Virus record (IMG/VR): IMGVR_UViG_3300025806_000180
Coordinates: 1 to 26,608 of that record
Origin: a virus
Reading direction: 5' to 3' (one strand)
DNA length: 26,608 bases
Made by a program: the position numbers and the translations under genes. Below, piece after piece: positions 105 to 26,381 of the stretch (position 1 is its first letter; each line of letters starts with the position of its first letter). The notes under the pieces were generated by a model. It saw only the letters and a list, made by a program, of their open reading frames with translations. It was not told the DNA's origin and did no database searches.

Positions 105-464
105 TTAGTAGCACCAAGCTACAGGAGTCTTACCATCGTGAATAGCCCGGTCGTCCACATGGATAAATGTACGAGCCACTCCAACGCCGCTAAAGCCAAG
201 GGCGAACGCCTGTTTAATAATCTCGTATCGTTGATTGCCACCAACCGCTTTGATGTCTGCTGCATAACCTTGGGCATGTGTTCCGGGTTTCTCCTTACGT
301 GCTTCTATTGAATGTGATGGGCTACGATAGCCGCTAGTAATGATGAAGGGAAACCCGCAGGCTTCCCGAAGTTCATCTAGTCTGTGGATAAAGTCCACGT
401 TCATTTTGTTTTCGCCAGTTTCTTGGCAGTTAAAGTCTTCTAGTTTAAAGTATTTAAATTCCAT
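105..464 (-). CDS. Endolysin-type peptidase M15 (D-Ala-D-Ala carboxypeptidase-like)
   Basis: This 119-aa protein is a compact M15-family zinc peptidase, the type used by many phages to cleave peptidoglycan stem peptides at lysis or during entry. Family motifs are visible in order: SGYRSP at residues 44-49, the zinc-binding GTHAQGYAAD with His63 and Asp70, and FIHVD with His102 and Asp104. The length matches single-domain phage M15 enzymes. There is no signal peptide or cell-wall-binding domain, so export would need the holin. The ATG overlaps the stop of the giant upstream gene as TAATG, and an AAGGAG lies about 10 nt upstream. The holin candidate is about 15 kb away, so the lysis genes are not one cassette. 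Family assignment is firm; the role in lysis is inferred from family and context. Confidence 0.9.
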   Translation of the reverse strand: MEFKYFKLEDFNCQETGENKMNVDFIHRLDELREACGFPFIITSGYRSPSHSIEARKEKPGTHAQGYAADIKAVGGNQRYEIIKQAFALGFSGVGVARTFIHVDDRAIHDGKTPVAWCY

Positions 465-3400
465 TATGCTACGTCTCCTTTTAAGTTAGCTCTAAGGGCT
501 GCTATTGTTCTACCGCTAGTAGGCTTAACTTTTCTTGGTTGAGTCAATAAACTAACTGGCTCGTCCTTAGCTACTTGTTGGGCTTGAGCTGAGATAACTT
601 CTCCGCCTTCAGCAAACATAGGCAGTCCTTTTTGTATATCTTTTCTCATTGCGTCTGTAATTTCTAACGTAGGCAGTGTGACTGTACTATCATTTTGTTT
701 ATACTCTACCATTTTAATTTCAACACCATACTTTTTAGCAAAGTTATTTTTCCAAAGCTTCATTAAAGTTTTGTCATAAAAGTCTAAGAACTTTTTACCT
801 TCACCAGCCTCTATGTTTTTGTTGTTGCGTTCAGCTTGCATTCGACCTGTAGTTAAAGCAACTTGGTCATATCCTTCATCTGTTGCGGTAATCATAGCTT
901 TACGAAGACCTTGTAAAGCCCAACGTTTCTCAGATTTAAACGGTAGGTCTGGTACTTTCTCAATTAATTCTTCTGCGGATTCCATTGTTGCAGAATCATA
1001 ATCTTCTCTGGTTGCGTAACCTTTTGCTTTACCCGCCTGCTGTGCATCAGACTGAATCTCGTCTATTAACAAAGTTTTGTTAAACGCATCGTCTACTTGT
1101 TCAGCATCTGCAAGTCTTACGTGAGCTACAGGGTTTGCAATGTCAGGAAAGTGAGAATGCTTATAATCTTTGTTTACTTTCTTAAACTTAGAGGGTAGTG
1201 AAAATACTAACTCACGATAGTTTAAAGTATCGGCTCCTTCAAAAGCATAGTCCAAGTGCGTTGGAATAGTAACAAAGTCTCCTCCTGTTGCGCTTCCTGC
1301 GTTAAACTCATCCATAAGCTCGTCATACATTCTATCCCAAGCCATTGGGTCATCGCTATCAAGCAAGTCATCCATCATTTCTTTTTCGAAAGGTTTGTTT
1401 TCAGTCAGCCAGTCGTCAAATAAATCAAACTCAGCATCGTCTGATAAGTCATCTAAAGGCATATCCTCGTCTACCGTTTCTTTTCTTTTTACGTGCCGTC
1501 CCACATTAACATCAAAATCAAAATCGCTTTGCCCGAAAAACTCTTGAACTTCTTCTTTTGTTACCGGCTTGTTGTTACCAAACTTTTCGGTAGCTCCTGT
1601 CCAGTCTAGTTCTTCTTCAGTTACTTTAGGGTCTTTCTTCATAGCGTTTAAATGTGCTTGACCCGGCTTAGGCTTAGAGCCTGTCAGTTTTTGTGAAGCT
1701 TTCTCTGCTGCGCTGTAGAATCCAGAAGTTTTCTTAGGTGCAAAAGCTTTTGTAATTCCGCTTACAAGGCTGCCAATTGCATAGTTCTGTCTAGGGTCAG
1801 CCGCATCAAACTTAGCTGAAGTAGTAAGTTTAAACTGTTCTGGTTCAAAAAGAATGTAAGAATATTCCGACTCTCCGTTAAAACCAAACTCAATTTCATT
1901 TTTATACTTAACAGAATCAAAACCAAATCGTTGCAGTTCTGTGCGTAAATCAATGTTCAACTCATTTTTCATTAAGTCCGTTTCTAATACATCTACTAAA
2001 GTTTCTTTAGGTCTAGTTTGAATATCCATAGCACGAGAGCGCAAAGCTTTCATTCGTTCAATAGATGCTTTAGTTACTTTACCGCCAGAATCTTCAACGT
2101 TAGTAAGCAGCTCGTTGATTCCATCCTTAGAAGCTAGAATTTTATCTCCAGCCCAAGTGTCTACAATAGTTTCTCCGTTGTACACTAAAGGTTTACGAGC
2201 ACTAATATATCCTGCTTGCATTTCATTTGCAGGAAGAACATAATCTGAGCCGTGCTTATCTTTAGCTACTTGATTAAGCTGTTCAAATTTCTTTTCGTAC
2301 TGAGTTTTTGTAGGCTTAGAGTTTTTAAAAGTTTTATATATATTTGCAGCTCTGTCAGCAGGATATAAATCAAACAACATATCTCTTAACTTAATAGTGT
2401 TTGCAACGCCTTCTGACCCGCCGTGCATTCCCATTTCTCTAGCAAACGGAAATGCTACATTAAACTCGCTAGTCTTAAAAGTTTTAATAGAGCGATAAAT
2501 TATTTCTTGAGTATCTGACTTTGCAACGTGCTTCTGCAAAGCTTTAGTTCGTTGAGCATCAGTAAGACTATCAGCTATGGTTTCTTGAGCGTCTAATCTA
2601 GGAGCTTTAAACTTACTAAAGTCTACGTTGCCATTAGCTGCAATCTTAACAATAGCATCTCTAGCAATAATAGGAGCACCTTCTTCAGAGATAAGCGGCT
2701 CTTTAGTTTTAATAACAGCAGTCAAAAAGTCGTGAGTTGCGTCTAAACTTTCTTCATCAAAGTTAGCTTTAGATGCAGCAGCTCGGTCAGCTTCTGTAAT
2801 GTTTATATTTACTTTTTCGTAAACACGCTTAACGCTTTCAAGCTCAGAAGACACAGCAAGCTTTAGAACATCTTTACTATTACCAACATCTTTAGTTTCT
2901 GCAAGCGTTTGCAGTGCAAAAATTTGGTCGTCAGTATAGCCTAAATCTCTCTGGTACTCAGCCATATTTTCACTAGCTTTAGCAGGGTCTGATTCATTTA
3001 AACCTTTTTGAAAGTTGCTATTATTTTTTGCATCGTCTAAATAGCCTAGCTTAGCGTTAAGCATTGTAGAAATATTAGCTTCTGCTAACTCGCTTGCTAC
3101 TGCTTCGTTAAGTTGTATTTTACCGCTTTGTAACTCTAGACCTACAGCGCCTTCAATTTTATTAGCGGTCTGCTGCAAAGCTTTGTCGTTAATAAGACCT
3201 TTAGTAGAACTCTTTAAAGTTCCTAGCATGTCTCCACTTAAAGCAACCGGCAAAGATTCTTCTATTGGAGCTACGTTTGGCTTTTTAAACAATCCTAAAA
3301 GTGCAGAGCTTGCTTCAGCAGCTACCTTGCCACCAGCATTAAATTGTAACGTTTTTGGTTTTTTATCAAACTCTTCAATGAATCCACCAAATACATCTTT

Positions 3401-6400
3401 CTGTGCGTCTCTTAAACTACCCTTGTATCGACGAACATTATCTTCACCAATTAAAGTGTCTCCAAAATAACTTCCAGAAAGAATAGGTACTTTACCGCCT
3501 ACTGTTGGAATAATGCCTTGTTGGATTAACTTTAACGTATCTGAGGCTGCGGGGCCAAAAGGCATTGTAGCATAAGCCAAGTTGCTTTTAGCGTACTTAG
3601 AAGCAGTTTGAGCACGTTGGAAACTATCTAGCAGTAAACCATTACCACCCCAACGAGCAACTGCGGTGCCTAAAATCTCATCTAAATCTTTACCACGTTC
3701 ACTTTCACCACCAGTACGTAAGTAGTTAGTCCATCGAGCCATACCAGTCATAATAGCTCCGGCAGCTACAATCTTACCACCGTTACGTGTAGGAGCTTTA
3801 ATAAGAGACTTAGCAGCGCCTTTCAGTACGGTGTTACTAAACGCCGCAGGATAACTAAGAAGCTGAAAGAACACAGCAGTTTTAGGGTTAGAGAACAGCA
3901 GAGGCTTTAAGCCTGACATTGCAGTAGGCTGAAGAACTACAGAGTTTGTGTAACGTGCAACGCCTCCCAAGAAATCATTCTTGTAAAAATCATCGGTTCG
4001 TTTGGCTCCGCCGTCATACCACTTAGTAGCCTGTTTAAAATCAATACCCAGCTCAGCTAGTTCGCCTGCAAGTATTTCTCCATCTCTGTCTAAAGGCTTT
4101 CCCTTATATCGTGTAGCAAGTTTTTCAATGTTTTCGTTTACAAGAGACTTGCCGCTTGAGTGAGAAACATTCTGTACAAACTTAGTCCACTGGTCTAGCA
4201 TGTTTAAACGGAAGAACTTATTACTTGCTTTCTGCAAGCCTTCAGTCATCAACTCGTCGCCTGCAAGTCTATCACCAACTTGAGCAAGTGCTTGGTCTAC
4301 GTGAATACTAAAGTCACGCATTTCTTTAAGAGCTTCGTTAGCTGTTAAGCCGTTTTTGTTCCTTAGCTCTGACTCAAGGTCTTTAGTAATACGCTTGTGA
4401 GACTGCTGCATAGCGTCTGCAAAACCTTTAACAGAGTTACGTACACCTGCTTTTTGAATGTTCAAAAATACTTCTGTTAAACTCGATACAGTTGCTAGGC
4501 CCAAAAGAGCCACACGGTTTGTAAAGCTATAAGCATCTACAGCAAGCTGTGTTTTGTTACCGTAACGCTCCATGCCTTCACCAGTTGCAGAACGATAAAG
4601 CTTTTCAAGCTGTCGTTCAATTTTAGGTGAAAACTCTTGGCCTGCTTCTTCCATTTCTTGTCTAATACGATTTACATAAAAACCTTTAAAGTCATCAAAA
4701 TTATTAACGCCTAGTACACGATGCTTAGCAATAGACTTACCTGCTTGGAAAGTGTAAGCATGTAAAGAACCAAGAACGTCGCTGTTTAAAAACTCCTCAA
4801 AGTCTGCGTCATTACCGATAGTATTAATCTTACGCTTAGCACTAAAGAAGTGTCCACCACCGCTACCTGCGTCTACTTGATTTTTTACATCAAGCATGTT
4901 TTCTACAGTAGCTTTAGCTTTAGTTCGAGTCATTCCTGCTTTTGTTACAAACTTTTCAATTAGTCCTTTTTTATTTTTTTCAATAGCGCTTCGGCTCCAC
5001 ATACGAGGAACATAGTTTTCTTGTAGTTTATCAATAATGCCAATGCTCTGAAGTTTAACACCCATTTCATTATACAGCTCTCTAGTTTCTAAAGCAGCTC
5101 TGTTAATTGCTGCATTAGTAGTATCATCGAACCCGGAATGTTTAAGAGGTTTATTGCTTCTCATGCTTTTACTTAAAGCATCATTAATGTCTGTTGCAAG
5201 TTTAGTGTCTAGCTCACTCAAAGAAAGAGAATCCACAATAGAACGGAAACGTTCGTTAAACTTACCAGTAACTTCACGCTGTACTTCAGACAAATCTTTT
5301 GCAACTACTTCGTCTTGAATTTTATATTTAATGCCAAACTCGTGGCTTAGTTTTTTCTGTAGTTGTGCGGCAGTCCCAGAAAACTTAGTTATTGGAGACA
5401 ACACGCCTGCTGCTTTGCCATAAAAGTTTCCGGTTAAATCTGAAGCTACTGTATATAGACCTTGTTTAATAGCGCTAGTACGGCCTTCAACAGTAGTTTC
5501 GTTATCTGCTGCTGCTCTAATGCGAGCTAAAATTTCTTTCTTAGTTGCTTCACCGCCACCTAAATCTTCAGCAAACTTTGTAGCTGCTGCGTCTAAAGCC
5601 TCATCATCCATATCAAAAGTACGTGCAGTCGCATCGTCAGTACCGTTTACAGTTTTAGCTGTTGCACCTTCAGGGCCGCTAATACGTAAAGCTTCATCTA
5701 CTACAGAACCGCCTGATGCAGGAATCCACTCACCTTCTACACCTTCGTCAAAAGCTTTTGAGGCTTCAGGAGCAGGAAGTTCCTTACGTGGCTCAGTTGA
5801 TTCTCTAAATGCTTTATTACCATGCTTAGAGTTTGAATATAAACCAGCGCCCTTACTAAGTGCAAAACCAAACGTACCACCTATTGCGCCACCTACAACT
5901 GTTTCTAACGCACTATAGTCTTCTCTCCCTTTAATGTCAGCAGAAATATCTAACTCTTGCATTATGTGAGAAGCAGTTAAACCATGACCTGTACCAACAA
6001 GCGTAGAAGCTTTAATAGGATTTTTAGTTGCAGCGGCTACCGAAGCTTTAACAGCTTTAGTTAATGCGTTTTGACCTGCTTGCTGTGCTGCTCGCCTAGC
6101 TGCTACAGTTGCTGCGGTTCCTGCACCAAACGTAGTTACTCCTGATAGTAGTCCACCAACAGTTGCTAAACCTTCAGGGCTAAACACTACGTCAGAAGCA
6201 TAGTCTTTAATTGCATCAAAAGTTTCGCCTGAGCCTGTTATAGAAGCTTTGTCCCAACGAGTTTTCATAACTCTGTAAGCTCTTTTAACTTCTTCTGGAG
6301 CATTTTTTAAAGAAGCAGCCAAGGAAATAGGAGCGCCTATTCGAGCTGTTAAGTCTCTCATATACTCAGCAACATCATCAGTCTGCCCGGTAGATGCTTG

Positions 6401-6622
6401 GTCAATTGCATAACGACCTACACCTTGGGTTTTAGCCAAGTAGTCTGTAAGGACTTCATAGTTTGCTAAAACAGTTTCATCGTTTTCATAATCTGTTACT
6501 GAATACTGTGATGGAATATAAGCTCCTTCTCGAACTGCTTCTTCTTGTTGAGCAGTCATGGAAGAGTCTGTTATTCCTTCAGCAGTAGAATCAAGTGCAA
6601 GTTGATATATATTATCTGACAT
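464..6622 (-). CDS. Giant internal virion protein with polyvalent-protein domains (2052 aa)
   Basis: This is the largest gene of the window, a probable virion protein ejected with the DNA. Residues 1-300 include an Ala/Gly-rich stretch near 150-260 (VGGLLSGVTTFGAGTAATVA). Around 700-960 there is a segment like the LPD38-type domain of large polyvalent proteins, with RYTNSVVLQPTA and SNPKTAVFFQLLSYPAAF. Around 1470-1595, GYISARKPLVYNGE and later FGFDSVKYKNE with YSYILFEPEQFK resemble the second half of the ART-PolyVal (ADP-ribosyltransferase-like) domain. From about 1630 to 2035 a composite domain follows: GFYSAAEKASQKL, EEELDWTGATEKF, NYRELVFSLP, LLIDEIQSDAQQAGKAKGY, ALTTGRMQAERN and GLPMFAEGG. 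This block recurs at the C-terminus of giant phage proteins. An Asp/Glu-rich stretch at about 1720-1770 interrupts it. AAAGGA precedes the ATG. No lytic transglycosylase motif is obvious. Domain names rest on remembered consensus patterns; enzymatic activity is unproven. Confidence 0.85.
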   Translation of the reverse strand: MSDNIYQLALDSTAEGITDSSMTAQQEEAVREGAYIPSQYSVTDYENDETVLANYEVLTDYLAKTQGVGRYAIDQASTGQTDDVAEYMRDLTARIGAPISLAASLKNAPEEVKRAYRVMKTRWDKASITGSGETFDAIKDYASDVVFSPEGLATVGGLLSGVTTFGAGTAATVAARRAAQQAGQNALTKAVKASVAAATKNPIKASTLVGTGHGLTASHIMQELDISADIKGREDYSALETVVGGAIGGTFGFALSKGAGLYSNSKHGNKAFRESTEPRKELPAPEASKAFDEGVEGEWIPASGGSVVDEALRISGPEGATAKTVNGTDDATARTFDMDDEALDAAATKFAEDLGGGEATKKEILARIRAAADNETTVEGRTSAIKQGLYTVASDLTGNFYGKAAGVLSPITKFSGTAAQLQKKLSHEFGIKYKIQDEVVAKDLSEVQREVTGKFNERFRSIVDSLSLSELDTKLATDINDALSKSMRSNKPLKHSGFDDTTNAAINRAALETRELYNEMGVKLQSIGIIDKLQENYVPRMWSRSAIEKNKKGLIEKFVTKAGMTRTKAKATVENMLDVKNQVDAGSGGGHFFSAKRKINTIGNDADFEEFLNSDVLGSLHAYTFQAGKSIAKHRVLGVNNFDDFKGFYVNRIRQEMEEAGQEFSPKIERQLEKLYRSATGEGMERYGNKTQLAVDAYSFTNRVALLGLATVSSLTEVFLNIQKAGVRNSVKGFADAMQQSHKRITKDLESELRNKNGLTANEALKEMRDFSIHVDQALAQVGDRLAGDELMTEGLQKASNKFFRLNMLDQWTKFVQNVSHSSGKSLVNENIEKLATRYKGKPLDRDGEILAGELAELGIDFKQATKWYDGGAKRTDDFYKNDFLGGVARYTNSVVLQPTAMSGLKPLLFSNPKTAVFFQLLSYPAAFSNTVLKGAAKSLIKAPTRNGGKIVAAGAIMTGMARWTNYLRTGGESERGKDLDEILGTAVARWGGNGLLLDSFQRAQTASKYAKSNLAYATMPFGPAASDTLKLIQQGIIPTVGGKVPILSGSYFGDTLIGEDNVRRYKGSLRDAQKDVFGGFIEEFDKKPKTLQFNAGGKVAAEASSALLGLFKKPNVAPIEESLPVALSGDMLGTLKSSTKGLINDKALQQTANKIEGAVGLELQSGKIQLNEAVASELAEANISTMLNAKLGYLDDAKNNSNFQKGLNESDPAKASENMAEYQRDLGYTDDQIFALQTLAETKDVGNSKDVLKLAVSSELESVKRVYEKVNINITEADRAAASKANFDEESLDATHDFLTAVIKTKEPLISEEGAPIIARDAIVKIAANGNVDFSKFKAPRLDAQETIADSLTDAQRTKALQKHVAKSDTQEIIYRSIKTFKTSEFNVAFPFAREMGMHGGSEGVANTIKLRDMLFDLYPADRAANIYKTFKNSKPTKTQYEKKFEQLNQVAKDKHGSDYVLPANEMQAGYISARKPLVYNGETIVDTWAGDKILASKDGINELLTNVEDSGGKVTKASIERMKALRSRAMDIQTRPKETLVDVLETDLMKNELNIDLRTELQRFGFDSVKYKNEIEFGFNGESEYSYILFEPEQFKLTTSAKFDAADPRQNYAIGSLVSGITKAFAPKKTSGFYSAAEKASQKLTGSKPKPGQAHLNAMKKDPKVTEEELDWTGATEKFGNNKPVTKEEVQEFFGQSDFDFDVNVGRHVKRKETVDEDMPLDDLSDDAEFDLFDDWLTENKPFEKEMMDDLLDSDDPMAWDRMYDELMDEFNAGSATGGDFVTIPTHLDYAFEGADTLNYRELVFSLPSKFKKVNKDYKHSHFPDIANPVAHVRLADAEQVDDAFNKTLLIDEIQSDAQQAGKAKGYATREDYDSATMESAEELIEKVPDLPFKSEKRWALQGLRKAMITATDEGYDQVALTTGRMQAERNNKNIEAGEGKKFLDFYDKTLMKLWKNNFAKKYGVEIKMVEYKQNDSTVTLPTLEITDAMRKDIQKGLPMFAEGGEVISAQAQQVAKDEPVSLLTQPRKVKPTSGRTIAALRANLKGDVA

Positions 6623-21776: not shown

Positions 21777-22565
21777 TTAAGCTACTACTCTGCCTTCCAT
21801 AATGGCTTCGTCGATTTCTTTTTCATATTTATCGTACTGGGCCATAGACAGGGCAGCAATCTCCCTTTGTGACCACACTTTTGCTTCTTTAGCATCAATG
21901 GATGTTGTTTTGGTTGAAACCATATCCGCTGCTGAGGCTGTGGTCGAAGTTTGTGACTTCGCTACAGTACCTTGAGAAGTTTGTAAACCATTCTCTAACT
22001 TATATAAGTCGATAGCTTTGACCGCTAAACCTACATTATCTGGATTATTATACACCCAGTCTTGAATTGCTTCTGGCTGTGCTTTGGCCCAACCGTGGAA
22101 CTCTTCACTTTGGCGAATGTCTGCAAAGTCTGGATGCGCTGAAGCAAGCGTTTGCTCTGCTTCTCTTCGCTCAATCCTTGCTTCACGTTCGTCTAGTGTA
22201 TATGTTCGTGCCGGTTCTAGTGCCTCAGCTTCTTGTTCAACATACTCGTTTTCAAGTTCTGCTTCAGTGTTATCCTCGTGACGTACGGCCTGTTCAACTT
22301 GCTGTGTCATTCGAGCTTCTGCTTGTAGTTCTTGTTCTTTCTGCTTGAACTCATTAATCTTAGAGTCGTAGTGTTTCTTTAGGTCATCGTATCGCTTTTT
22401 GTAGTTAGCACTTTCTTCATCAGGGGCCTTTCGGGTGGCCTGACTAGGTTCGTGGTAAAGACCATCAGCATTTTGAAAAGGGGCATCTGGTTCGTTGCCA
22501 TAGTCTTTTCTCATGTTGTATAGGTTTGCTACTTCTTCTTCTTGTATTTCTTGTACTTCGCTCAT
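21777..22565 (-). CDS. Capsid scaffolding protein
   Basis: This 262-aa, strongly acidic and helical protein lies directly before the capsid gene. Residues about 50-130 form a coiled-coil with many Glu/Gln/Lys (NYKKRYDDLKKHYDSKINEF, KQKEQELQAEARMTQQVEQA). A compact helical part follows: TLASAHPDFADIRQSEEFHG, WAKAQPEAIQDWVYNNPDNV, GLAVKAIDLYKLENG. This 'HPDF..IR.S.EF..WA..QP' pattern is typical of marine podovirus scaffolds. The C-terminal basic/acidic helix (SMAQYDKYEKEIDEAIMEGR) would contact the coat protein. AAAAGGAG lies before the ATG, overlapping the downstream edge of a repeated stem-loop. One further stem-loop copy falls inside codons near residue 45. Scaffolds guide assembly and leave before DNA packaging. 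Confidence 0.88.
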   Translation of the reverse strand: MSEVQEIQEEEVANLYNMRKDYGNEPDAPFQNADGLYHEPSQATRKAPDEESANYKKRYDDLKKHYDSKINEFKQKEQELQAEARMTQQVEQAVRHEDNTEAELENEYVEQEAEALEPARTYTLDEREARIERREAEQTLASAHPDFADIRQSEEFHGWAKAQPEAIQDWVYNNPDNVGLAVKAIDLYKLENGLQTSQGTVAKSQTSTTASAADMVSTKTTSIDAKEAKVWSQREIAALSMAQYDKYEKEIDEAIMEGRVVA

Positions 22566-22697
22566 GTCACACTCCTTTTGGGGCTTGTCGTCTTTTCAAG
22601 GTAGCCGAGATGTTAGCTAGACATTCGGGGCTTGATACTACAAGGTGGCCTCTAGGTTAAAATTAAAAGTGATAAGGGGCTGCGCTAACAGGTGGCC
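22423..22697 (-). ncRNA. Cluster of four matching stem-loops around the scaffold gene start
   Basis: On the coding strand each copy reads GGC(C/T)AC, a short stem-loop, then CCCC. Copies in transcript order: 22676-22697 with stem CTG/CAG and loop TTAGCG; 22627-22650 with CTTG/CAAG and loop TAGTAT; 22580-22606 with CTTG/CAAG and loop AAAAGACGA; 22423-22440 (inside scaffold codons) with CC/GG and loop GAAA. The inner stems differ in sequence and length but stay paired, while the flanking bases are nearly constant. The first and last copies also have an outer stem (GATAAGG/CCTTATC and TCAGG/CCTGA), leaving the same CCAC/CC internal loop. The first three start 47-49 nt apart. I recognise no known RNA family. 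A regulatory or processing element of the late mRNA is the leading guess; a protein-binding DNA site is possible. The fourth copy could be chance. Confidence 0.55.
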
Positions 22698-22702
22698 TTA
22701 TC
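22657..22702 (-). terminator. Possible weak terminator after the 482-aa gene
   Basis: The 7-bp stem GATAAGG/CCTTATC overlaps the last codons and stop of the 482-aa gene and encloses the first stem-loop of the repeat cluster. On the coding strand it is followed by ACTTTTAATTTTAA, a T-rich run. The shape fits a leaky intrinsic terminator or a 3'-end stabilising hairpin before the scaffold-capsid pair. The long interrupted apical part makes it weaker than the post-capsid hairpin. Confidence 0.4.
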
Positions 22703-24146
22703 GTTTGCGTACGCTTGGCATTGCGTTAGAACTAAGCATCTGGTTATGGACTCCTAAATCGGGGTCTTCCATATCCATCAAGTTAGGCATTACGCTTCCG
22801 CCTCCGTACTTTTTCATTAAACCGCCATCGTAAGCACGTTCTGCATCATCCATCATAGTCTGAAGCTTTTCTGTGCCTAGCTGGTCGGTTGCTTTTCTGG
22901 TGAAAACAAATTCACCATCCGACAACCTTGCGGGTATCGAATCTGATGTGCCTGTGCCGGGGCCTTTAACGGCTCCTTCACCTGCAAATTCTCCGGCTGT
23001 ATCCATGATTTTATCAAAGATAGCGCCTAGTTTCTCGTCGCCTTCAAGAGCTTTGAGAAGATATTCTTGGTCGTCAGCCTCTAAAGACTCTTCCATTACG
23101 TACTCTGCGTACTTGTCTTCCATCTCATCGTCTGGAAGTTGTGAAGCTTCTACAGCAGCTTTCTCACCTTCTGGGATATTGTCGTAAGTATCGACAGGCT
23201 TATCCAGCATTGAGCCGCCTTCTGCGTAACCAATCTTAGTATCAGTTCCCGGAGCTTCTACTTCTTTTACTGGGTTAATGCGGTTATTATCGGGTTCAAT
23301 AGGGTCAGGGCCTTCTAATGCTGTTATGCTGCTGGCGTTAGTTAATGAGCCTTTTTCTCTTTCTAGTATTCTTGAAAATAGTCCATTACCGGAACTGCTA
23401 CTTTGATTGTCGATTATTCCTTTAGCCGCCTTCATAAGACCGCCGAAGAACTTGCCTTCTCGCATTTCTTCGTCAGTAAGAAGCTTAGCACCGCTTTCTT
23501 TATCTAGCTTAATTGCTGCTTGAAATCTTGTTTCGCCGTCAAACGAATCTTCAATTTCTTGGAAGCGTCGGTTAATAGTCTCACGAGACTTATCAGTTTT
23601 AGCTTTTGCAATTTCTTTTTCATACTGCTTAGTAAACATAATAAGTTTATCTACATCGCTATCGCCCATCTCACCGCCTTCGCTTTTAGCTTCACGGCTG
23701 TCTTCTACAAACGCAGTAAGCTTTTCAAAGTCGTCGTTAGCTAAAAGAGGCTTGGACTCTTCATCCATTTGTGTGCGGTGCAAATCAGTAATGAACTCAG
23801 CAATAGATTGCTTGGACTCAACGATAGGGGTATCAGCCACTTCGTTTAAAGACTCCATGATGAACTGCTTGTCCATCTTTTTGTTTCCGCCTTGGAACTT
23901 GAAAGAGTTTACAAGCTGGTTAGTGTCTTTAATGTTTTCCATCTTTACTTTAGGGGCTTCTGTTTCTGCACTGCCTTTTGTTTTAGATACAGCTTCAGCC
24001 ATCTCTTCAACTTCTATAGGGGTTGTGCGTTCAGGGCCACGAGCAGCCACGACATCTTTACGAGCTTCGGACAACAATGCGTCAGCACCCTCTGCCGCTG
24101 CTTGAGCTACTGAGCCTACTGCGTATTTTAGTTTAGGTACTTTCAT
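22698..24146 (-). CDS. Accessory structural protein with GPGTGTSDSIPARLSDGEFV motif (482 aa)
   Basis: The product is acidic and largely helical. Its N-terminal 60 residues are Ala/Glu-rich, and the middle has charged segments such as IMFTKQYEKEIAKAKTDKSR. At about 385-416 it carries VKGPGTGTSDSIPARLSDGE followed by FVFTRKATDQLG. This motif is spread widely in phage structural proteins of otherwise unrelated sequence, often near the C-terminus and often, as here, with an AEGG motif (YAEGGSMLDKP, about 310-320). The motif's function is unknown to me; processing or virion attachment have not been shown. The C-terminal 60 residues are Gly/Met-rich and basic (ending MPSVRKR). The ATG overlaps the TGA of the 78-aa gene, with AGAGGA before it. 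By position between portal and scaffold it is probably a head or core protein. Confidence 0.75.
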   Translation of the reverse strand: MKVPKLKYAVGSVAQAAAEGADALLSEARKDVVAARGPERTTPIEVEEMAEAVSKTKGSAETEAPKVKMENIKDTNQLVNSFKFQGGNKKMDKQFIMESLNEVADTPIVESKQSIAEFITDLHRTQMDEESKPLLANDDFEKLTAFVEDSREAKSEGGEMGDSDVDKLIMFTKQYEKEIAKAKTDKSRETINRRFQEIEDSFDGETRFQAAIKLDKESGAKLLTDEEMREGKFFGGLMKAAKGIIDNQSSSSGNGLFSRILEREKGSLTNASSITALEGPDPIEPDNNRINPVKEVEAPGTDTKIGYAEGGSMLDKPVDTYDNIPEGEKAAVEASQLPDDEMEDKYAEYVMEESLEADDQEYLLKALEGDEKLGAIFDKIMDTAGEFAGEGAVKGPGTGTSDSIPARLSDGEFVFTRKATDQLGTEKLQTMMDDAERAYDGGLMKKYGGGSVMPNLMDMEDPDLGVHNQMLSSNAMPSVRKR

Positions 24147-24379
24147 CGTTGTTCCTCTTTTCTTTGTCGGGCTTCAATAGCCTGTTCTTTTAGTTGTAGT
24201 AAGTTAGCCAGTGAACTCGCTTTCCCCTGCTTGCGGTACAGCTCCTGTTCCGATGTTGCCACCGCCAGTGCCTGTAGCTCCAAGTTCCGTAGGTGGTTGA
24301 GGTGCTCCTTCAGGGCCTCCCATAGCTCCGGGTTGTTCACCAGCGGCCCCAGCCGCCCCGCCATTTCCTTGTCCAGCAT
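24143..24379 (-). CDS. Overprinted small helical protein within the portal 3' end (78 aa)
   Basis: This gene overlaps the last 176 nt of the portal gene in another frame, then extends 61 nt beyond it. Evidence that it is real: a strong ribosome site (TAGGAGCACAAA before ATG), an ATGA overlap with the next gene that suggests coupled translation, and an orderly amphipathic composition (VNNPELWEALKEHLNHLRNL, ELQALAVATSEQELYRKQGK, then ASSLANLLQLKEQAIEARQR). Helical proteins with the pattern 'LWE.L...L..L......L..A..E.ELYR.QG....L..LL.L.E' follow portal genes in other marine podoviruses as I remember them. The function is unknown. It could assist packaging or portal assembly. Confidence 0.8.
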   Translation of the reverse strand: MLDKEMAGRLGPLVNNPELWEALKEHLNHLRNLELQALAVATSEQELYRKQGKASSLANLLQLKEQAIEARQRKEEQR

Positions 24380-26381
24380 TTTGTGCTCCTATAATTTGTG
24401 CCATCATTGCAGCTTCTTCTGGGTCATTAAGAATCTCGTCAGGGTCGAGGTCAAGGCTGTAAGCCAACTCGCTAACAATCTTAGAGATTTTAACAAACGG
24501 TGCAACGGCAGGATTCTGAGCTGTCTGCAAGAACATAGTCAAACGCTGACTACGTACTTCTTTTTGCATTAAGCTGTTAGTACCCATTGCTCGAACTTCC
24601 AAGTCGCCTTGGATGTCTAGTTCACCTTCAAAGAACTGCATGTTCCATTGGTAGTATGCTTCGCCAAGAGGCTTTAGCAGGAAGTCATCAATGTTCTTAA
24701 TAACTGTTTTAATGTTGAGAGACGCTGCACCCAATAGCATAGACATACCAGATGCTGTACGAGTCATCGACTGTACGCCTGTCTGACCGTGGGAGTAGCT
24801 TGGGATGCCTGTCTGTTCGTCAGCAAGCTGTCGGAACTTGTCAAACATCATCATGTTTTCTTGCGAAGTGTTAGGGAACTTCATACCATAAATAGCCTGT
24901 CCGGGTTGTCCTGCCTGACGGCGGAAAACTTTGCCCGGATAGATGTCCATGCTCTGACCGCCTACTAACGCTGACTCATCTACGTCAAACACTAGACTAC
25001 CTGCAAGCGCAAGGTTATCAATAGCCATTCGAGCGTGACCATTCATTATCTGTTGAGAGTCGTCCATATTCTCAGCGACACCAATGCCGAAGAAAGAGTA
25101 AGGATTACGCTCGTAAGGAAAGGCGTTGTATGGAAGTCGGTAAGGAGTAAATGGATTAACAACACCACGCAAAAGCTTTCCATTACTAATCCAAGCATTA
25201 ACTTGAACTTCATCTAGGTCATCTACCTCATCGGGCAATTCCATACCCACTTCTCGTGCATATTCAGCATCCATGATGCCCCAGTATTCAAGAACTTCAA
25301 ACTGACCTGAACCGTAGTCTTCTGAACGTTGGTCGTCTTTTAGTTCATGCTCGTAATCTTTTTCAACGTAGTTAGGCCCCATCTGGAGACACTCACGTAT
25401 TGCATCCTTGTCGAAGAACGGCATCTTGCTCAATGCTCTTAGCTGAGACTTATTCATGCGGTGACGGTGTACAATGTATTCACACTCGTCAATAGAAGTT
25501 GCAGCAGGGTCAGGGAAGAAATCCCAGATACTTACAAACTCTAAACGAGGCACACGAACATTTAACGGACTGTACTCTCGCTCGCCGTCTTCGTTAGTTG
25601 TCCAACGGCTTAGAGTCTTGTTATAGTTGAATGGGCCTTTAACAATACCTGTACCAAATAACGCAGATTCAAGTAGTGCATTACGTAGCTCGCTTGAACC
25701 ACTAGACTCTTCAATTTGGTCGTGAATTAGAATCTGCATATTACGTGCAGCTTCTTTAGCAGGGGAGCGTTCCAAGACTTGTGGGTTAGGAGATGCTCCG
25801 TCTTTTAATTCTATGTTTGCTTCTTTAATAGATTCAGATAGTACGTCTTTTGTAGCCGTAAGTGTCGCACCCGGCCCAAGAACCTGACCATCGCCTTCGT
25901 AGCCAACGTCGTAAGGGTCTTTAACTTCTTCTGGTTCTACTGGCGGCTTATACTCTGGGGCGCTTGTTTCAATGCCTGTTGCGCCTTGTTCCATGTGTTG
26001 ATACTTGGCAATACCTTCAGGCAGTCGTGTTTCACGTACGCCAATTGGAAACTCACCTGTACCAAAGATAACATCAATCAACTGACCAAACGCTGCAAGA
26101 ACTTTAGTCTTAGTAACCTTTACGAATACTTTAGACTTTTCTGACTCACGGAAACGAATGTTCTTGGCATAGATGCCACGGAAGTTATGGTAGGCTGTTA
26201 GCCAACGCTTTTCGTCGAAGTCTCGTGCTTGTTCAGCCTGAGCGTAGCGGTCTTCTACTAAGCCTACGAAACGGTTGCGAACATCTTCTTCTAAGTCAAG
26301 CTCATAGCCACCAGCGGTTTCTTCATCGCTAAAGTAGATTTCGTCCATTGTTCCGTATTCTTCGTTTTCTTCTTCGTTCAT
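24204..26381 (-). CDS. Portal (head-tail connector) protein
   Basis: This 725-aa protein begins MNEEENEEYGTMDEIYFSDE and has the body of a podovirus portal. Landmarks are FDEKRWLTAYHNFRGIY and VFVKVTKTKVLAAFGQLIDV (about 55-100), then LRNALLESALFGTGIVKGPF (about 230-250). The clip/wing region includes FVSIWDFFPDPAATSIDECE. The core has YERNPYSFFGIGVAENMDDS, QQIMNGHARMAIDNLALAGS and MTRTASGMSMLLGAASLNIK (about 540-560), followed by PLGEAYYQWNMQFFEG. A dodecameric ring at one vertex, through which the terminase packs DNA, is the family role. The last 60 residues are Gly/Ala/Pro-rich (NAGQGNGGAAGAAGEQPGAM) and lie over the 78-aa gene; this tail looks disordered and shaped by the overlap. The start has only a weak ribosome site, three bases after the terminase stop. 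Confidence 0.9.
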   Translation of the reverse strand: MNEEENEEYGTMDEIYFSDEETAGGYELDLEEDVRNRFVGLVEDRYAQAEQARDFDEKRWLTAYHNFRGIYAKNIRFRESEKSKVFVKVTKTKVLAAFGQLIDVIFGTGEFPIGVRETRLPEGIAKYQHMEQGATGIETSAPEYKPPVEPEEVKDPYDVGYEGDGQVLGPGATLTATKDVLSESIKEANIELKDGASPNPQVLERSPAKEAARNMQILIHDQIEESSGSSELRNALLESALFGTGIVKGPFNYNKTLSRWTTNEDGEREYSPLNVRVPRLEFVSIWDFFPDPAATSIDECEYIVHRHRMNKSQLRALSKMPFFDKDAIRECLQMGPNYVEKDYEHELKDDQRSEDYGSGQFEVLEYWGIMDAEYAREVGMELPDEVDDLDEVQVNAWISNGKLLRGVVNPFTPYRLPYNAFPYERNPYSFFGIGVAENMDDSQQIMNGHARMAIDNLALAGSLVFDVDESALVGGQSMDIYPGKVFRRQAGQPGQAIYGMKFPNTSQENMMMFDKFRQLADEQTGIPSYSHGQTGVQSMTRTASGMSMLLGAASLNIKTVIKNIDDFLLKPLGEAYYQWNMQFFEGELDIQGDLEVRAMGTNSLMQKEVRSQRLTMFLQTAQNPAVAPFVKISKIVSELAYSLDLDPDEILNDPEEAAMMAQIIGAQNAGQGNGGAAGAAGEQPGAMGGPEGAPQPPTELGATGTGGGNIGTGAVPQAGESEFTG

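Follow-up and report, generated by a model that had tools for sequence, protein, structure and literature searches.

Four short hairpins near the start of the scaffold gene of a viral DNA raise the question of whether they form a genuine RNA element and, if so, which molecule reads it. The window analysed here is the whole stretch of viral DNA (26,608 nt, positions 1 to 26,608 of IMGVR_UViG_3300025806_000180). Judged by portal and coat, the isolates nearest to it are HTVC115P, a Pelagibacter phage, and further phages of the HMO-2011 type.

Four hairpins before and inside the scaffold gene

An earlier note had described four copies of one stem-loop design in the window without giving their strand. 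All four were found, and all lie on the minus strand. They share a GGCYAC-stem-loop-stem-CCCC design and are located before and inside the scaffold gene of this HMO-2011-type phage. The minus strand is also the coding strand of this region, and the surrounding genes all lie on it. The features of the region are as follows.

24204-26381, minus strand: portal
22698-24146, minus strand: 482-aa protein that precedes the scaffold gene
22676-22697 (pattern; 22671..22702 with outer stem), minus strand: hairpin copy 1, GATAAGG-CCAC-CTGT-tagc-GCAG-CC-CCTTATC, 36.7 bits
22627..22650, minus strand: hairpin copy 2, GG-CCAC-CTTG-tagtat-CAAG-CC-CC, short outer stem, 9.2 bits
22580..22606, minus strand: hairpin copy 3, GG-CTAC-CTTG-aaaagacga-CAAG-CC-CC, 15.4 bits
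22572..22579, minus strand: scaffold-gene Shine-Dalgarno region, AAAAGGAG, immediately next to copy 3, with the spacing kept across relatives
21777..22565, minus strand: scaffold gene, 262 aa, assigned by synteny between portal and coat, phrog_13678, alignments and the AF2 helix at residues 51-96; likely target and likely binding protein of the hairpins
22423-22440 (pattern; 22419..22444 with outer stem), minus strand: hairpin copy 4, GTCAGG-CCAC-CC-gaaa-GG-CC-CCTGAT, 20.3 bits
20769..21743, minus strand: major coat protein, encoded after the scaffold gene, phrog_267 major head protein, related to the HTVC115P and HMO-2011 coats

The 262-aa protein is likely to be the scaffold, judging from synteny, composition, a predicted helical model and weak structural matches to annotated scaffolding proteins. 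In structure searches, this model gave no matches in the PDB, and among viral models it gave unnamed relatives and the weak matches that include scaffolding proteins. Elsewhere in the window, at 464-6622, a 2052-aa structural protein matches a PHROG annotated as endolysin over most of its length.

As the earlier note described, three of the copies lie in the intergenic gap. Copies 1-3 occupy the gap before the scaffold gene, with the outer stem of copy 1 containing the stop codon of the preceding gene and copy 3 ending 14 nt 5′ of the scaffold start codon; copy 4 sits within the scaffold ORF at about codon 43 and not in the gap. A pattern scan of both strands found no further copy in the window, in agreement with the earlier reading by eye, and a first-order Markov simulation of the same composition gave 0.02 such matches per window. 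A covariance model built mainly from relatives was then run on the window, and nothing beside copies 1, 4 and 3 scored above 10.5 bits. The low score of copy 2 is due to its missing extended outer stem, and its exact relatives were recovered by a pattern scan.

Copy 1 alone folds into the expected structure (z -3.6), while copies 2 and 3 were not stable by thermodynamics alone in in silico folding. Since the folding energy of the whole UTR was no better than that of shuffled sequences, thermodynamics alone does not reveal the element. The covariance models of Rfam 15 gave no match to the part of the window that contains the hairpins with an E cutoff of 5, and none with a cutoff of 1 in six relatives. 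An intrinsic terminator would show a G+C-rich stem followed by a T run; here a Shine-Dalgarno site follows the gene-proximal copies (e.g. CCCCAAAAGGAG).

Conservation of the element upstream of scaffold genes

Relatives were sampled by gathering 80 contigs via the coat protein and scanning them for CYAC facing CC or CA with any paired flanking stems. Nearly all of these contigs carry the loop upstream of the scaffold gene, with differing stems. In an enlarged set, the strict scan found the element upstream of the scaffold gene in 222 of the 228 coat-carrying contigs with enough upstream sequence, and the density of matches was 933 per Mb upstream of the scaffold gene compared to 29 per Mb elsewhere. 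As a negative control, the scan was repeated after the letters of the loop had been permuted or altered, and it gave 0 to 14 matches compared to 319 with the loop itself, which, together with the simulation above, shows that the pattern is rare in chance sequence. The consensus is an asymmetric internal loop (5′-CYAC-3′ facing 5′-C(C/A)-3′) with an invariant G-C outer closure, a C-G or U-A inner closure and freely covarying stems. The CCAC/CC internal loop to which the earlier note had drawn attention is the constant part of this design.

Five of the six scan misses carry weaker, compound or displaced versions by inspection (L037, L271, L273, CRP-1 L104 and ctYwJ313 L105), and the sixth, CHOED (L109), carries a loop variant. 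In L271 and L273, about 2 kb separate the element from the coat gene downstream, which suggests a long scaffold or an inserted gene. A few contigs have no detectable element; one of these, the MAG contig L318 (L318:2900-4001), encodes a typical KKRYGDLRRH scaffold and may have lost the element naturally.

Viral contigs were also scanned with DNA patterns blind to the coat gene. Counts from all of the collections are lower bounds, and closely related contigs are not independent. A CCTA/TAGG inner-stem pattern was present in at least 97 stretches of viral contigs, and a coat gene lay within 1.6 kb in 95 of the 96 with room downstream; the sole coat-less match (L122) is in a stretch without visible phage structural genes. 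A two-loop hairpin pattern was present in at least 120 stretches. Among the 121 matches listed, a coat gene lay downstream in 100 and the contig ended too early in 13; of the 8 listed without a coat gene, one (L378) does have a scaffold gene, and the other 7, among which L446 appears twice, resemble low-complexity repeats. A GC-rich CCGC/GCGG stem pattern gave many coat-less matches, which were taken as chance in GC-rich DNA.

The position of the element is tightly kept. The distance from the end of the last element to the scaffold start codon is 10-22 nt in about 140 of 146 distinct cases, the Shine-Dalgarno sequence usually following the element directly, and this conserved hairpin adjoins the ribosome-binding site of the presumed regulated gene, as in an operator. 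In most of the isolate genomes with a model match, the scaffold UTR was the top-scoring place. In addition, close relatives of the window carry an extra copy within the scaffold gene, around codons 38-49, in which the encoded peptide varies (ATRKAP, ATSEEDGTP, ATPEEAP and others) and the stem is retained by paired changes. The main comparative paper on HMO-2011-type phages does not mention hairpins, non-coding elements or promoters.

Covariation and two arrangements of one loop

In a gap-free alignment of 30 elements that had been chosen partly by pairing, 93% of cells were paired compared to 64% after shuffling, 9 of 10 pairs changed on both sides, and the covariation score was 0.743, compared to 0.227 for shuffled elements and 0.14 or less with the partner slid. 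Because of this choice, each stem was retested on sets chosen without that stem. Inner stems in sets chosen by the outer stem alone were 82-90% paired, with shuffled values of 38-43% for the two least constrained positions, and outer positions 3-5 in the CCTA set were 95-100% paired compared to 64-66% in shuffles. All 15 distinct versions of the two-loop set form the outermost and innermost central pairs, but positions 3 and 4 were no better than shuffles. The tests on independently chosen sets agree for most stem positions. All 173 distinct elements are closed on the outside by G-C; on the inside, they are closed by C-G or U-A, apart from one case of U-G.

The asymmetry between G.U and A.C (19 compared to 9) weakly favours the mRNA strand. 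The earlier note had left open whether the motif was RNA or DNA; position and coding context argue for RNA on the mRNA strand and against a DNA motif. The absence of conservation or covariation in related phages had been set beforehand as evidence against the motif, and both were found to be strong. Frequent occurrence of the pattern in shuffled sequence had likewise been set as evidence against it, and the pattern proved rare in the simulation. Taken together, these sequence comparisons support well that the design is a real, widespread RNA element.

Two topologies of the element were found. Phages like that of the window carry one to four single-loop hairpins (a tandem, SAR11-type arrangement), and in SAR116, Roseobacter and Rhizobium phages two inverted loops are mostly joined in a single hairpin. 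The two-loop form, present in HMO-2011, CRP-345, CRP-212, CRP-3, ctYwJ313 and many contigs, has opposite-facing loops with a helix of about 5-7 bp between them at the centre, as in HMO-2011 (GTTGG-CTAC-TCACT-CC-CCATAC...GTGTGG-CTAC-GGTGG-CC-CCAAC). The occurrence of one loop in two arrangements indicates that the loop is the functional unit, and the inverted pair suggests binding by two protein subunits. An alternative fold that pairs GGCTAC with the second arm is preferred by the energy model in HMO-2011 and CRP-345; it was rejected as the family structure because, by inspection, it is impossible in variants like TTATC/GATAA or CTATG/CATAG.

The first loop base changes with scaffold residue 63

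The scaffold proteins of the group diverge widely, and nearly all keep the motif KKRYxDL(K/R)xH or a close form. In the window, this conserved helix is KKRYDDLKKH at residues 56-65, within the confidently predicted AF2 helix. The loop starts with A or G instead of C in gammaproteobacterial relatives (CHOED, Aeromonas phages 1233 and MQM1, and Slicky01) and in Roseobacter phage CRP-738. The scaffold residue after Leu/Ile (K63 in the window) is Gln in 19 of 19 contigs with an A or G loop, compared to K/R in 384 contigs whose loop is of the CYAC type; in 5 further K/R contigs, the loop was not found by a simple search. In the coat tree, CRP-738 falls inside the roseophages beside L477 and L483, both of which have R and CTAC. 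Since CRP-738 nests among R/CTAC roseophages, loop and residue switched jointly at least twice.

We then asked which protein columns share a rare residue common to both switched lineages. Only 1 of 282 scaffold columns (K63) did so, compared to 0 of 327 coat columns; groups were labelled by residue, and labelling by loop yields identical groups. The scaffolds of CRP-738 and L477 are 62% identical, and the Gln-bearing proteins differ elsewhere too. Since there are only two events and 38% of the scaffold residues differ, the tie between loop and residue is circumstantial and not proof. Within that limit, the co-segregation of the loop base with residue 63 is strong circumstantial evidence, from sequence, for the scaffold as reader.

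A putative translational operator read by the scaffold

The position of the hairpins and their change in step with one scaffold residue suggest that free scaffold probably switches off its own production. We therefore consider the hairpins to be, more likely than not, a translational operator of the capsid-scaffold gene to which the scaffold protein would bind as a repressor; of the functions proposed in the earlier note, the binding of a protein close to the scaffold start agrees best with the evidence. Each copy in the mRNA forms two short helices around an asymmetric internal loop (5′-NYAC-3′ facing two bases). The part recognised would be the loop with its flanking G-C pair, and the rest of the stems would need only to pair. 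Free scaffold, via the conserved basic helix KKRYxDL(K/R)xH, would bind the loops beside the Shine-Dalgarno sequence and block initiation, and procapsid assembly would relieve repression by using up scaffold. Several loops per mRNA, as tandem hairpins or as two inverted loops about 5 bp apart, could allow cooperative or dimeric binding.

An operator bound by a different protein, such as the coat, another phage protein, or a host RNA-binding or ribosomal protein, is a possible but unlikely reading. A site beside the Shine-Dalgarno sequence with a fixed loop would suit any RNA-binding repressor or activator, and the coat gene accompanies the element as regularly as the scaffold gene does. However, the loop changes follow a scaffold residue and no coat column, and since the hosts span alpha- and gammaproteobacteria, a single host reader is less likely.

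We find it rather improbable that the hairpins set the levels of scaffold and coat mRNA through processing or stability, as RNase III or RNase E sites or as protective hairpins. This function had been among those proposed earlier, and several hairpins per UTR do head the scaffold-coat segment, but the analysis gave it no support. RNase III substrates are long, near-perfect duplexes of about 20 bp, whereas the helices here are 2-8 bp on each side of the loop, and a fixed, base-specific loop, copies within the ORF and tight spacing to the start codon would be unexpected.

A riboswitch, with the internal loop as a small-molecule aptamer in tandem, is very improbable. Although an aptamer could well take the form of a small conserved loop repeated in tandem in a 5′UTR, no alternative pairing common to the family and no switching platform were seen, the loop base changes together with a scaffold residue, and copies within codons 38-49 would be unusual. 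Chance or common DNA ancestry without RNA function is hardly credible, for although copies within one phage could be recent duplications, this reading is contradicted by covariation, with both stem sides changing while the loop stays, by the low permuted-loop controls and by the same loop in two topologies.

Relation to known regulatory RNAs

Returning to an operator read by the scaffold, autoregulation of the P22 scaffold gene (gene 8) was reported by Wyckoff and Casjens 1985 (cited in PMC5744158); on phage scaffold autoregulation, the literature consulted provided the citation of this report only. The phages described here resemble P22 in having a P22-type coat (the HMO-2011 coat is annotated PF11651), a scaffold gene just before the coat gene and a proposed feedback on scaffold synthesis. 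They differ in that nothing convincing of the element was found before P22 gene 8 and that the P22 scaffold has no profile similarity to the scaffold of the window's group. Since P22 has neither, the likeness is one of proposed working, and homology is not implied. We know of no defined RNA target for P22 scaffold autoregulation.

Translational operators of phages include the MS2 coat hairpin and the T4 RegA and gp43 operators. Like these, the element is a small hairpin by a ribosome-binding site, here proposed to be read in feedback by a phage structural protein as those are by structural or replication proteins. In contrast, it has an asymmetric internal loop, occurs in several copies as tandem or inverted pairs, and belongs to the scaffold gene of a dsDNA phage. 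An asymmetric internal loop inside a stem-loop is also described for the C-loop of ribosomal and thrS RNAs (PMC8570644), a likeness by general description that serves as a lead only.

On balance, and a little less firmly than for the operator itself, we favour the view that the hairpins represent a new RNA operator family, in which the scaffold would read an asymmetric loop via one helix and procapsid assembly would control scaffold translation; in this family, the loop base and residue 63 would have switched together at least two times, and two multi-site topologies would have evolved. The element is a compact, natural and widely conserved candidate for the RNA read in scaffold autoregulation, with a specificity pair of one residue and one base. 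Rfam lacks this structured RNA, although the phages that carry it are among the most abundant marine groups. The element also offers a marker for the scaffold genes of the HMO-2011-type group, which are left as 'hypothetical protein' in databases.

Observations between the scaffold and coat genes

In HMO-2011 and several CRP roseophages, a gap of 220-260 nt between the scaffold and coat genes contains a strong TTGACA...TATAAC promoter-like pair. The same gap (L098:13663-13902, L102:3221-3482, L104:3199-3461, L106:3235-3455 and L107:3262-3482) contains a partly conserved leader, GGATTACC...GGCC...GCACCC, which could represent another structured RNA ahead of the coat gene. In Sinorhizobium phage phiM6 (L108:3317-3385), a possible extra copy of the loop, TAAAGA-CTAC-CCATA...TATGG-CC-TCTTTG, lies upstream of the coat gene.
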